Shown: piece after piece, positions 3,098-24,005 of the stretch
Layout of the letters: every line of letters begins with the position of its first letter
How positions within the stretch are numbered: position 1 is the stretch's first letter
From: a virus
Strand: one strand, 5' to 3'
IMG/VR virus record: IMGVR_UViG_3300036846_000873
Coordinates: 1-45,004 of that record
Length of the DNA stretch: 45,004 bases
Made by a program: the position numbers and the translations under genes
The notes under the pieces: generated by a model
Told to the model about the DNA's origin: nothing
What the model saw: the letters and a program-made list of their open reading frames with translations, nothing else
Database searches by the model: none

Positions 3098-3781
3098 TTA
3101 TGTAGGCTGACGACCAGTTGGTGGAATTACTTGCTCTTCTGAGTTGATAGGCTCGAACACTTCATCGTCCTCGGGTTTGAGAGTAGGTGGGGTCCATATA
3201 GACTGCGAAGATGGGGTTTGATTTTCAAATGGTGTGCGTGGTTTGCCGGTACGTGCAGCTATATCGTCTAACAGAGCTTGCTCTTGTTCTGGAGTCAATT
3301 CGCCATCTTTGGGGCCGTAAGGACGGGCTGGATCATCGTTGAATTGGGAGATAGGTGGAGGTTGATTGGAGGGAGCTATAACGATTGATGCTTCGAAGAT
3401 GGAATGAGGCTGAGAGAGACGGCGATTGCGGCGAGGATTGGATGCATTGCGAGCGGTGCGCATGTATTCAGCTTTGGTTGCGTTTCGAGCGGCATTGCGG
3501 TTGAAATGCCTCCACTCCTCCATGATAACGTGCTCGATTTTGGAGAATGTGGTCATGGTGTTGCGGAGGTCGGGTGCGAAGCCAGGGATGGAGGGTGGGA
3601 AGAGTTGATCATTGTCTGTGATGAATAGACCGAGTTCAGCGAAGGCGACTGCGGGAGACATGAGGCCCTGATTGATGCGAGTTTGTTGGGTTTGGAGGAA
3701 GGTACGGATGCGTTCGATGGCCTGGAAGGATAATAACGCCGCATTGTTCTGCGTTATTAACCGCGATTGGTTGATAGGCAT
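3098..3781 (-). CDS. hypothetical protein (227 aa)
   Basis: The N-terminal half is helical (MPINQSRLITQNNAALLSFQ...) with a basic Asn/Arg-rich stretch in the middle (FNRNAARNATKAEYMRTARN). The C-terminal half is disordered and rich in Pro, Gln, Glu and Asp. This looks like a nucleic-acid-binding or adaptor protein with a flexible tail, but no family is recognised. It is the second gene after the promoter at 4183-4211 and starts 1 nt after the preceding stop. Confidence 0.7.
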   Translation of the reverse strand: MPINQSRLITQNNAALLSFQAIERIRTFLQTQQTRINQGLMSPAVAFAELGLFITDNDQLFPPSIPGFAPDLRNTMTTFSKIEHVIMEEWRHFNRNAARNATKAEYMRTARNASNPRRNRRLSQPHSIFEASIVIAPSNQPPPISQFNDDPARPYGPKDGELTPEQEQALLDDIAARTGKPRTPFENQTPSSQSIWTPPTLKPEDDEVFEPINSEEQVIPPTGRQPT

Positions 3782-3782
3782 T

Positions 3783-4148
3783 TTAATTCTCCCTGGAGAG
3801 TTGCTGCTTTACTTCGTAGGTTAGTTTGTTGAATATCTCTTGATAGTCTAGACCTACTCTACTAACTTCGAAGCGAAGCCAGCTTAAAACCTCTGAATAT
3901 AATTGACTGTTTCCTAATAGAGCGAAGTAGATTGCGTCTTGGAATGCTTTGTTTAGGTGGCTGAAATACTCTTCATTGGTTATCACTACTTTGTCTGTCA
4001 GTGGGTATTTTGCCATGGCACGAACTATTCTTCGGACGTAGTCCATGATAATGGTGCGATGGTCTGCTTTGATTGTGTTTAAGAGTATTTGCAGTTCTTC
4101 TAGCAATTGTTCTGATGTTATGTTCTTTACATTTGGTGGAGAATGCAT
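3783..4148 (-). CDS. hypothetical helical protein (121 aa)
   Basis: The start at 4148 is set by AAAGGAG 8 nt upstream; the longer reading to 4214 would begin inside the promoter. The protein (MHSPPNVKNITSEQLLEELQ...) appears all-helical, with a long amphipathic helix through LNTIKADHRTIIMDYVRRIV. No motif is recognised. It is the first gene of a two-gene unit with the 227-aa gene. Confidence 0.75.
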   Translation of the reverse strand: MHSPPNVKNITSEQLLEELQILLNTIKADHRTIIMDYVRRIVRAMAKYPLTDKVVITNEEYFSHLNKAFQDAIYFALLGNSQLYSEVLSWLRFEVSRVGLDYQEIFNKLTYEVKQQLSREN

Positions 4149-20504: not shown

Positions 20505-21320
20505 ATGGCTGGAAGTGAAGAGAATCCTGGTCCGGGTGGACCGAATGAAGTGCAGGAGCCGGCTGGTACGCCTGCGACCCCCATCGATGCACCAGAGACG
20601 CCAGTTACTCCCTCCGCTGGTCCGGCTCCTGCGCCAGAGGCAAGGGAAGAGGTCTCGGAGAGGCCTAGGACTGACTGGCGAGATAGGCGGATTGGGGAAC
20701 TGACCGCAAGGACAAGGGAGCTGAGAGCGGAGCTGGAGAGGGTGAGAGCTGGGCAGGCTCCATCGAATGGGCAAGCACCTCAGCCTGGGCAGCCACCAGG
20801 ATATAACCAGGGGCCGCCGAATCAGCAGACTATTGATGCACAGATAGAGCAAAGAGCTAGGATCTTGGCTGAGAACCAGGATTTTAATAGGAGGTGTAAT
20901 GAAACAGCTGAAATAGGAAGAAGAGCTTATACTGATTTTGATATGCAAGTAGGAAGATTAGTAGGGCTGGTGGATAATAATGACCCTCAAGGAATAGCCT
21001 CCTATAATGCATTTTTGAATGCGGCGCTGGAGACGGGGGAAGCAAGTAAAATTATCTATTCTTTGGGAAGCGATCTCAATGAAGCGTCTCGCATTCTTAG
21101 TTTGAGTCCACTGAAGATGGCGGTTGAGCTGACTAAAATGGCCATTAAACCAGTAGCACAGATAAGTAATGCACCGAGGCCAATCAATCCAGCCTCAACA
21201 GCAGCACAAGCTGCAAGAAGTAGCACGAGTCCAGATGATCCTGGAAGTGATCACATGTCAACCGAGGAGTGGATGCGTCGGAGAAATGAACAAATAGATG
21301 GCCGGAGGGTCCGACGATGA
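20505..21320 (+). CDS. capsid scaffolding protein (271 aa)
   Basis: It lies just before the coat gene, where P22-type scaffolds are found. The N-terminal 80 residues are acidic and Pro-rich, then comes a long charged helix (RIGELTARTRELRAELERVR). The C-terminal region ends DPGSDHMSTEEWMRRRNEQI and a basic DGRRVRR, like the coat-binding helix-loop-helix at the end of P22 gp8. Scaffold directs coat assembly and then leaves. The leader contains the 19-nt GCGACTGACCGAAGGGAAG also found before the gp10-like gene. Confidence 0.8.
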   Translation: MAGSEENPGPGGPNEVQEPAGTPATPIDAPETPVTPSAGPAPAPEAREEVSERPRTDWRDRRIGELTARTRELRAELERVRAGQAPSNGQAPQPGQPPGYNQGPPNQQTIDAQIEQRARILAENQDFNRRCNETAEIGRRAYTDFDMQVGRLVGLVDNNDPQGIASYNAFLNAALETGEASKIIYSLGSDLNEASRILSLSPLKMAVELTKMAIKPVAQISNAPRPINPASTAAQAARSSTSPDDPGSDHMSTEEWMRRRNEQIDGRRVRR

Positions 21321-21823
21321 TTACACAGGGGGAACTCCGCAATCTCATCGAGTATAATCCAGATACTGGATTATTTAGCTGGGTACGGCCTACTGGTGGA
21401 GGTAATTATAAGCGTGGGTGGTTTCCTGGATCTCCAAGGAATGGGTATTTTGTTATTAAGATAAATGGTAAAGATTATCCAGCACATACCTTAGCCTGGC
21501 TGTGGATATATGGAGACTGGTTCATTGGATTAGACCATATTAATAGAAATGGAGCTGATAATAGAATATCTAATTTAAGAATGTCTAGTCATTCTACAAA
21601 TGCAATAAACTCTAAGATGAGAACAAGTAATACCTCAGGTGAGAAAGGAGTTTCTTACAGGGGTACTATAAAGAAGCCTTGGGTCGCATTCATTATGCAG
21701 AATTATGTTCTAAAAAGAGAGTATTTTGATACTAAAGAAGAAGCAATAAGATGGCGTAAGTTAATGGAGAAGAAGCTGTTTGGCGAGTTTGTGCCTAAGA
21801 TCGTAGCCTCCGATGGAAAATGA
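21317..21823 (+). CDS. HNH endonuclease with AP2-type domain (168 aa)
   Basis: The HNH part shows LIEYNPDTGLFSWVRPTGGG and GLDHINRNGADNRISNLRMS (the His-Asn-Asn core at about residues 73-92). The C-terminal NTSGEKGVSYRGTIKKPWVA segment matches the AP2-like DNA-binding domain often attached. Its ATG overlaps the scaffold stop (ATGA), so it is co-translated. It is clearly related to the gene at 23445. It lies upstream of the intron-bearing coat gene and outside the intron itself, so it is free-standing. AT-rich codon use suggests acquisition. Confidence 0.9.
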   Translation: MITQGELRNLIEYNPDTGLFSWVRPTGGGNYKRGWFPGSPRNGYFVIKINGKDYPAHTLAWLWIYGDWFIGLDHINRNGADNRISNLRMSSHSTNAINSKMRTSNTSGEKGVSYRGTIKKPWVAFIMQNYVLKREYFDTKEEAIRWRKLMEKKLFGEFVPKIVASDGK

Positions 21824-21826
21824 GGC

Positions 21827-21879
21827 GTTCGCTCCCGAGAGCGTAAGCTCGGTGTTCGCTCCCGACTGCGTAAGTCGGT
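21827..21879 (+). repeat. tandem hairpin repeat upstream of the coat start
   Basis: Two adjacent units (21827-21853 and 21854-21879) both begin GTTCGCTCCCGA and end TCGGT. Each forms a hairpin: CCGAG/CTCGG in the first and CCGAC/GTCGG in the second. The closing pair changes from G-C to C-G while pairing is kept, which supports an RNA structure. A further AGGCT/AGCCT stem follows at 21885-21907. Confidence 0.7.
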
Positions 21880-21939
21880 GCTACAGGCTGATACCTGGGG
21901 GTAGCCTGGACCCTAATAGCACCTACTGGGAGACAGACA

Positions 21940-23420
21940 GTGCCAAATCAGCTTTTGACTATAAACATGATCACGAGGGAAGCGGTGCGTCTCTGGAAAA
22001 ATTCAAATGCCTAGACTTTGGGCCTTCAGGAAGTAATTCCTGTCGATACCGGGTGAATTCGGTGGAACTCCAGAACGGACAATACCGAGCCAAGCCGCCT
22101 CTGGCGGAAGGTGTAACGACTAGAGCGAAAGCTCGTAGGGACAAGCGTCCCGAAGTGCCCGGCTCCACGAGAGTGGATGAAGAGATAGTCTCCTCTGCAT
22201 GGGAACATGCAGCAGCCTGAAAGGGCGGTCACGGATTAGCGACTCGTGGCGAAGGATAGGTTCTCCAGAACGTCGATATGCAGTATGACGACTCCTTCGC
22301 TGTAACAGGGGCGAAGATCGGATCCAGTCTGAGGATTAGGCTGCCCAATGACTTCACAGTAACAACTGGGCCTGCGTTGAATGTTCAAGATACTGCGGAG
22401 CAGTCCACTACCCTTGTTCTGGCGACTCAGAAGCATGTTGATGTCGCTTTCAGCATGGCTGATCGCACTCTGTCTTTGGATGATTATAGCAGGCGCATTC
22501 TGGCTCCTATGGTGAATAACTTGGCGGGGCAGGTGGCCGTCGATTTGATTGGAGGCTCGGAAGGTGGCATCTGCAACATTACGGCCAATCTTGACTCGAG
22601 CTTGAACATTATCGCGCCTATTGCTTCCACCTACTTGCGAAGCGGGGCGACGCTGAGGAACAACTCGAGCCCTGTGGCGAACTGGAAGATTGTGAACAGC
22701 CCAGATACCGAGGCGAGTGTGGTGAGCAGCCTCACGGGGTTGCTTAACCCGGCCCCGGAGATCAGTCGGCAATATATCACTGGCCGGATGTATGATGCGC
22801 TGGGCTTTATTTGGATGGCGGACCAGACCATCATTACCCATACAAATGGGGCGGCAGCGTCTGGAGGATCGACGGTTAACGGGGCGGGGCAGACAGGGCT
22901 AAGTTTGACGGTGAATGCCCTGGCTAATGGCTTCAATATGGGAGACATTATCCAGATTGGTGGTGTCCATGCGGTGAACCGTATTACTAAGCAGTCTTAT
23001 GGCCGCTTGCGGACGTTTGCGGTGACGGCGAATGTGCCGTCTGGTGCCACCTCCATCCCCATCTATCCGGCGATTGTGCCGCAACTGGCACCGGGTATCC
23101 CTCAGCAGTATCAGACGGTTGATGTGAGCCCGGCGAATGGAGCGAATGTTGACCCGGCGATGAGCTTGCCGGCGAGCACGGCTTATACGAAGAACTTTGC
23201 GTATGCTCCAGAGGCGGTGACGCTTGCGACGGCGGACTTGGAGATGCCGAGGAATGTGCATGAGGCGGCGAGAGAGGAGTTTGATGGGGTCTCCATGCGC
23301 ATGGTTACAGACTACTTCATCGGGACTGACCAACTTATTACTCGTCTTGACGTGCTCTATGGGTATCTCTGGATCCGCCCCGAATGGGCCTGTGTCGTGG
23401 CTGACCAGATATATCAATAG
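21940..23420 (+). CDS. major capsid protein, P22 coat-like, split by an intron
   Basis: The coding parts are 21940-22012 and 22261-23420; the region between is a group I intron. Exon 1, from GTG at 21940 with GGGAG upstream, codes PNQLLTINMITREAVRLWKN then SNA. Joined to exon 2 it continues FLQNVDMQYDDSFAVTGAKI, the N-terminal pattern of P22-like coat proteins. The product is 410 aa, near the P22 gp5 length of 430. Reading into the intron gives a stop (GCC TAG) at once, so splicing is needed. Exon 2 includes the conserved EQSTTLVLATQKHVDVAF and the C-terminal LYGYLWIRPEWAC. Annotating from 22278 alone would lose 30 residues. Coat protein forms the icosahedral shell. Confidence 0.9.
22013..22260 (+). 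ncRNA. group I self-splicing intron in the coat gene (248 nt, no ORF)
   Basis: The fold can be drawn by eye. P1: exon GCCU (22009-22012) with GGGC (22020-22023), U-G at the splice site. P2: 22027-22032/22037-22042. P3: CCGGG 22049-22053/CCCGG 22158-22162. P4: UCGGU 22059-22063/ACCGA 22084-22088. P6: 22095-22099/22103-22107. P7: GACUA 22118-22122/UAGUC 22186-22190. P7.1 and P7.2: 22123-22134 and 22138-22151. P8: 22164-22168/22173-22177. P9: 22195-22201/22206-22212. The intron ends in G (22260). Two helices between P7 and P3 indicate subgroup IA. The ligated exons restore the coat frame. Confidence 0.93.
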
Positions 23421-23444: not shown

Positions 23445-24005
23445 ATGGCTGACTTTACAAGAGCAATGGGTGGCTGGATTAAGGAATTGCTTGAGTACAA
23501 TCCAGCCACGGGTGAGTTCTTTTGGAGAAAGAGCACTGGTCCTAATGCTATAGTTGGCTCTCGCGCGGGGTCAGTCTATGACAACGGATATCGCTATATC
23601 CAGATAATGGGAGAAGATTATAAGGCTGGAAGACTTGCCTGGTACTTTATGACTGATGAAGATCCAGATCTCTTTATCGACCACAAAAACGGTGTAAGAG
23701 ATGATGACAGGTTTGACAACCTGAGAATTGCCACTAATAGTCAGAACCAAGCTAATGCCTTCTGGAGCACGAATACCTCTGGCTTCAAAGGTGTGTCTTG
23801 GCAGAAGTCTAGAAGTCAATGGATTGCAGTAATAACTGTGGATGGCAAAGCAAAGAACCTTGGACGCTACTCTCGAAGGATTGATGCAGCCAGGGCTTAC
23901 AGGAGGGCCGCGATCGAAGCCTGGGGTGAGTTTGCCAACGTGCCATCCGAGGAAGAGATGGAAGCGCTGGATGAGCATTTGACAGAAGTTCAAGGCCGGG
24001 TTTGA
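23445..24005 (+). CDS. HNH endonuclease with AP2-type domain (186 aa)
   Basis: It shares the plan of the gene at 21317: LLEYNPATGEFFWRKSTGPN, the HNH core FIDHKNGVRDDDRFDNLRIA (about residues 77-96), then NTSGFKGVSWQKSRSQWIAV and the AP2-type end. AAAGGA lies upstream of the ATG. It starts 24 nt after the coat stop, so the coat gene is bracketed by two related nucleases. Its stop lies inside copy 2 of the 21-bp repeat. Confidence 0.9.
   Translation: MADFTRAMGGWIKELLEYNPATGEFFWRKSTGPNAIVGSRAGSVYDNGYRYIQIMGEDYKAGRLAWYFMTDEDPDLFIDHKNGVRDDDRFDNLRIATNSQNQANAFWSTNTSGFKGVSWQKSRSQWIAVITVDGKAKNLGRYSRRIDAARAYRRAAIEAWGEFANVPSEEEMEALDEHLTEVQGRV

Follow-up and report, generated by a model that had tools for sequence, protein, structure and literature searches.

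The window, by which we mean the whole 45,004-base virus record analysed here, carries genes for terminase (phrog_3717/phrog_2), portal (phrog_156), scaffold (phrog_8865) and P22-type coat, in that order. Matches to PF11651 (1.2e-27) and phrog_283 (3.8e-48), with a scaffold gene upstream, place the coat protein in the P22 coat fold family. Its gene is flanked on both sides by nuclease genes (Table 1). The uninterrupted readable coat frame opens at ATG 22278, already inside a conserved region as an earlier first-pass annotation of this DNA had noted, and the N-terminal 30 residues are conserved upstream of it. That annotation assigned the missing N-terminus to a GTG with a ribosome site at 21940. 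This was borne out: the Shine-Dalgarno sequence GGGAG lies at 21928-21932, 7 nt 5′ of the GTG, and the exon-1 peptide is identical or nearly identical to the contiguous N-terminus of intronless relatives. Most of 80 IMG/VR relatives, retrieved with exon 2 only, encode the same N-terminus without a break. Joining T22012 to T22261 restores the frame, as had been proposed, and gives a 1233-nt CDS that has a single terminal stop, encodes 410 aa and is colinear with the intronless genes. Reading without splicing from GTG 21940 does end at the junction, where a UAG spans the first intron bases (GCC U/AG; the slash marks the splice site here and below). Conservation of the exon-1 peptide across nearly all relatives led us to reject a coat start at Met31.

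The leader before the coat start (21818-21940) contains repeated small hairpins, which also occur upstream of coat in L001, L004, L008, L012, L060 and L066. The last element could, in several relatives, form two pairings: CACCUCCC with the GGGGAG ribosome site, and GGUUGCA with UGCAACC. Energy z-scores range from -0.5 to -3.1, and an Rfam search gave no match.

Table 1. Positions of the split coat gene, its intron and neighbouring nuclease genes in the window, and of intron sites in related coat genes
Feature	Position	Strand	Remarks
HNH endonuclease gene, free-standing, scaffold-coat interval	21317..21823	+	PF13392, phrog_99; candidate homing helper
Coat gene exon 1	21940..22012	+	73 nt; GTG start; codes VPNQLLTINMITREAVRLWKNSNA and first base of Phe25
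Group I intron, ORF-less, subgroup IA-like	22013..22260	+	248 nt; RF00028, covariation, fold z -3.9, P1 U.G, 3′ G
P1 5′ strand GCCU (exon end)	22009..22012	+	pairs with GGGC 22020-22023; U.G at 5′ splice site
Internal guide sequence GGGC	22020..22023	+	partner of exon end GCCU
P2 hairpin	22027..22042	+
P3	22049-22055 with 22156-22162	+	encloses P4, P5, P6, P6a, P7.1, P7.2
P4	22059-22063/22084-22088	+
P5	22069-22071/22077-22079	+
P6	22089-22091/22110-22112	+	P6a also within P3 span
P7	22118-22122 with 22186-22190	+	forms P3/P7 pseudoknot
P7.1	22123-22134	+	100% paired in nine introns
P7.2	22138-22151	+	100% paired in nine introns
P8 hairpin	22164..22177	+
P9	22195-22212	+
P9.1	22215-22226	+
P9.2	22230-22248	+
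Coat gene exon 2	22261..23420	+	remainder of P22-type coat
HNH-AP2 endonuclease gene, second free-standing, just downstream of coat	23445..24005	+	PF13392, phrog_99
Intron site s1	Ile8 AT/C, after base 2		L003, L007
Intron site s2	Phe25 T/TT, after base 1		window, L007
Intron site s3	after Asp30		L003, L006, L007
Second-clade intron, L111	877-1142
Second-clade intron, L227	185-456
Second-clade intron, L235	2612-2886
Second-clade intron, L236	2614-2886
Second-clade intron, L247	2552-2886
Second-clade intron, L252

The first-pass annotation had pointed to the Rfam group I model, and RF00028 matched at 22003-22212, scoring 67.8 bits (gathering score, 50; E = 3.2e-15); a Rfam scan of the whole 45-kb window gave no other match. 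The intron is 248 nt long and free of an ORF, as claimed. One frame within it stays open for 68 codons at the longest and the other frames for no more than 28; a mechanical ORF overlapping it (21813-22220) had no Pfam match. The final base, said to be G, is G22260. All ten helices that had been named (P1, P2, P3, P4, P6, P7, P7.1, P7.2, P8 and P9) are present, together with P5, P9.1 and P9.2, and P1 (GCCU/GGGC) has a U.G pair at the splice site, as in group I introns.

Across nine related introns, the drawn pairs were kept in 92.4% of pair cells, versus 72.3% in shuffles and 32-45% in slid controls, and 44 of 66 pairs had changed on both sides, a count matched by 0 of 500 shuffles. By helix, pairing was 96-100% for P3, P4, P6 and P7 and 71% for P8, the length of which varies; P7 was 100% paired, with 3 of its 5 pairs changed on both sides. 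The single-strand fold was also stronger than that of shuffles (z = -3.9). P7.1 and P7.2 lie between P7 and P3, which we take to be the mark of subgroup IA, and they point to membership of the window intron in that subgroup. As judged by sequence and structure, the insert is confirmed as a complete group I intron, and the claim that an ORF-less intron of this class splits the coat gene was right to the base, with fold and covariation intact.

Three further coat genes among the 80 IMG/VR loci (L003, L006 and L007) were also split, and the interruptions are group I introns. RF00028 scored 77-92 bits in five of them, and the L007 site-2 intron scored under the Rfam gathering score. Spliced in silico, all three genes give the N-terminal sequence of intronless relatives. 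The sites s1, s2 and s3 all fall within 67 coding bases and are occupied by the same intron subfamily. The L007 coat gene (3110-4010) holds all three introns, with an exon of 17 nt (3720-3736) between s2 and s3. A search for further loci with site-1 or site-2 introns found only L003 and L007, and co-conversion of exon flanks was not evident. P1 ends in U.G in every intron of the window's clade. The site-3 (Asp30) introns of L003 and L006 have P1 helices of 7 bp, and a silent difference between their exons (TGTGGAT versus CGTGGAT) is mirrored in the guide sequence (GTCCACA versus GTCCACG).

In a tree of 109 subfamily introns (229 columns, modest support), the s1 introns of L003 and L007 were sisters (support 1.0), as were the s2 introns of the window and L007 (0.89), whereas the three s3 introns fell at separate places among introns from other genes. 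Site-wise grouping at s1 and s2 marks the introns within one gene as separate lineages and not tandem copies. The idea that a single intron was duplicated locally to fill all three sites was rejected on this grouping and on the scatter of s3, within the modest support of the tree. Introns of the subfamily thus appear, from their sequence relationships, to have settled separately at several coat-gene sites. When RF00028 was run on ~123 P22-coat records collected blind to introns, it found introns only in coat; on 93 such records it found none.

Introns of a second coat clade (L111, L210, L227, L235, L236, L247 and L252; 36% identity between the L111 and window coats) grouped together in the tree (0.85). 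They are inserted between LLTxQ and (V/M)ITNELL, where intronless sister genes read straight through as CAG/GTN or CAG/ATG. In every distinct intron of this clade examined, exon CCAG or GCAG lies opposite CUGG or CUGC, giving G-C at the splice site, and the +1 base is A or G, never U. We predict from these alignments that the splice-site pair of this clade is G-C instead of U.G. A U-ended 5′ splice site was rejected, as a workable U.G register is missing from four of the five distinct sequences examined; the alternative register in L111 has 3 bp and would add one residue. The last exon base of group I introns is virtually always U and exceptionally C, and group B IStrons, with G there and U at +1, are an oddity (PMC4227781). 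Their 5′ exon ends in G, like that predicted for the second coat clade, but they keep U.G one base on, whereas in the second clade U is absent at +1 and the guide C would be the partner of the exon G. Should a G-C splice pair be confirmed, the near-universal U.G rule would come into question.

We then asked where else the subfamily lives, using a 25-base core pattern searched in IMG/VR regardless of gene. It matched at least 119 stretches, and loci were typed by clustering flanking frames and scanning representatives; the flanking open frames of 76 loci among the matches listed were scanned with Pfam and PHROGs. Among the matches listed, the introns had a median length of 239 nt, and 62 of 65 classifiable unique loci lay in capsid, tail-sheath or tail-tube genes, a tally that includes IMG/VR contigs possibly related to one another. 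The host was a major capsid gene in 50 of these 65 listed loci (SU10 type, 19; phrog_267/3437, 15; phrog_334, 14; phrog_283, 1; phrog_10, 1, weak), tail sheath in 7, tail tube in 5 and an enzyme of DNA, RNA or nucleotides in 3. Since coat introns supplied the pattern, lineage choice may account for part of this structural-gene excess. The same pattern had one match among 85,000 bacterial and archaeal genomes, and prophage relatives of the coat sought in bacterial genomes were not found. In cultured phages, introns whose cores are similar interrupt genes for DNA polymerase, terminase and other enzymes; none of those checked carries the exact pattern. We tentatively suggest, with slightly less than even confidence, that the window intron belongs to an ORF-less group I branch that has specialised on the most-expressed virion genes of uncultured lytic phages and has in part swapped U.G for G-C. 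The proposed hosts would be the major capsid genes of several unrelated families, tail sheath and tail tube, unlike the known DNA-metabolism pattern.

Several individual loci deserve mention. The single bacterial-genome match (L459, 1852-2713) is an intron that splits a capsid gene of SU10 type; its contig is binned as Rickettsiales and is probably of phage origin. Several genes among pattern loci L082-L161 have two or three introns (e.g. L093, L083 and L136), and L128 apparently has one in sheath and another in tube. In L201 (4286-4520, GenBank MW202674.1), the coat gene is annotated as two P22 coat CDS (phrog_283 1-87 and 89-382) separated by ~220 nt; this gap resembles an unannotated group I intron, and RF00028 does not detect one in it. 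In L456 (1198-1351, GenBank MW202512.1) an intron core adjoins an HNH gene and lies directly 5′ of a capsid CDS that has no N-terminus (phrog_334 from 65).

Counting only relatives with the region in view, an HNH gene lies between scaffold and coat in all three testable intron-bearing records (window, L003 and L007) versus 2 of 15 close intronless ones (one-sided Fisher p = 0.012, kinship ignored); L006 was left out because its sequence is truncated here. The upstream HNH proteins of the two exceptions, intronless L002 and L011, share 80-84% identity with the one in intron-bearing L003, so nuclease and intron do not strictly go together. The downstream HNH-AP2 gene likewise follows coat in some intronless relatives. 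Among the pattern loci listed, nuclease-like stretches numbered 11 in 183 kb lying ≤1.5 kb from introns versus 3 in 376 kb beyond (p 6e-4), and with a small nuclease panel a nuclease was found within 1.5 kb in 9 of 69 pattern loci among the matches listed. The intron would most likely spread between related phages by recombination at the conserved exon site. In the window's clade this would probably be helped by the neighbouring HNH enzyme as collaborative homing, in which a free-standing nuclease adjoins an ORF-less intron (PMC3984707, PMC10448857). Mobility through the adjacent nuclease is plausible. A real intron that spreads without the neighbouring HNH gene has a considerable chance of its own, if somewhat under one half. 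Its routes would be ordinary recombination when phages co-infect a cell, or reverse splicing into late mRNA, which is abundant, with later return to DNA. The introns have no ORF, their host genes are typically those most expressed, and no nearby nuclease was detected at most subfamily loci among the matches listed. Most second-clade introns lack an upstream HNH gene too, the scaffold end lying directly before coat, and L111 has an endonuclease VII/HNH gene upstream. The HNH association in the window's clade argues the other way, and the site-wise lineages fit DNA homing equally well.

For the window we favour the following course. The coat gene would be transcribed as a precursor containing the 248-nt ribozyme, which is predicted to self-splice. 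The intron would fold into its P3-P9 core with exon end GCCU docked on guide GGGC, an external guanosine would attack the 5′ splice site at the U.G pair, and exon 1 would be joined to exon 2 after the terminal G to encode the 410-aa P22-type coat protein. The in-frame UAG at the junction would halt ribosomes ahead of the intron. Virion production would be tied to splicing, as the first-pass annotation held, if splicing is the sole route to full-length coat, and a regulatory role is putative. That the insert is a group I intron removed by splicing seems to us highly probable, and the whole account, including its hedged parts on splicing, subfamily spread and HNH help, is very probable. It is unlikely that selection keeps the intron as a regulatory switch through which coat synthesis would be coupled to GTP level or the state of translation. 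Every site-2 and site-3 intron has an in-frame stop at its junction, such stops are regarded as a splicing aid (PMC3984707), and a switch role has been put forward for phage introns (PMC11878797), but presence is patchy among close relatives, most of which have no intron, so a mobile element fits better than a needed switch. The ATG that opens the readable frame would suit a decayed, unspliced remnant with coat made from 22278. This is very improbable given the intact core and covariation, N-terminal 30 residues conserved in nearly all relatives, and a closest purine-rich stretch ~17 nt from that ATG. An assembly artefact or chimera is hardly credible: every intron-bearing relative is indeed a metagenome contig, but independent contigs from different samples share the site and colinear exons, and in the second clade two samples yield the same intron sequence (L111 and L210).

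Group I introns in capsid genes are already known, and the one in the window is a further example. Its interest lies in the setting: several related introns crowd into a small part of an essential late gene, and their subfamily turns up repeatedly in virion genes, both capsid and tail, of unrelated phages. The L007 arrangement, with three related introns spread over 67 coding bases and a 17-nt exon among them, offers a natural test of how ribozymes choose splice partners. Where one to three introns split a coat gene, the gene is misannotated as truncated (e.g. GenBank MW202674), so capsid-based surveys may miss them. Most split phage genes serve nucleotide and DNA metabolism, and a 2025 study asks why phage group I introns colonise only such genes (PMC11878797); recurrence in capsid, sheath and tube genes makes this question testable in environmental phages.

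The literature searched, which omits most subscription journals, yielded no account of a P22-type coat gene interrupted by an intron. The capsid intron of mycobacteriophage LittleE and the tail intron of BAKA are group I introns in virion genes (PMC3706429), and that paper also cites lactococcal phage Tuc2009. The LittleE capsid intron is spliced at the RNA level to give a normal-length protein, as is predicted for the window. The LittleE intron, like ours, lies in a capsid gene, with exon 1 ending in U and the intron in G, but it is 819 bp long and has a putative homing endonuclease, whereas the window intron is 248 nt, ORF-less and in a P22-type coat gene (PMC3706429). Up to three introns per gene and exon skipping are known in phages (PMC11878797). 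Twort orf142 (tail tube), for which that paper cites Landthaler and Shub 1999, reportedly contains three group I introns and shows exon skipping, and resembles the L007 coat gene in bearing several in one virion gene; the three in L007 differ in lying only 67 coding bases apart at most and in flanking an exon of 17 nt. The DNA polymerase intron of Klebsiella phage RCIP0099 belongs to the same subfamily (74.6% identical to the window intron over 190 nt), as do by sequence those of Xanthomonas MK21 DNA polymerase and of the phiTE and Henu2_3 terminases, which have similar cores; their hosts are polymerase or terminase genes, whereas ours is coat. T3-like phages, S-PM2 and ICP1 also have an ORF-less intron beside a free-standing nuclease gene (PMC10448857, PMC6083498). 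Compared with collaborative homing in these phages, cleavage at the intron site in the window is putative, and two intronless relatives retain a similar nuclease.
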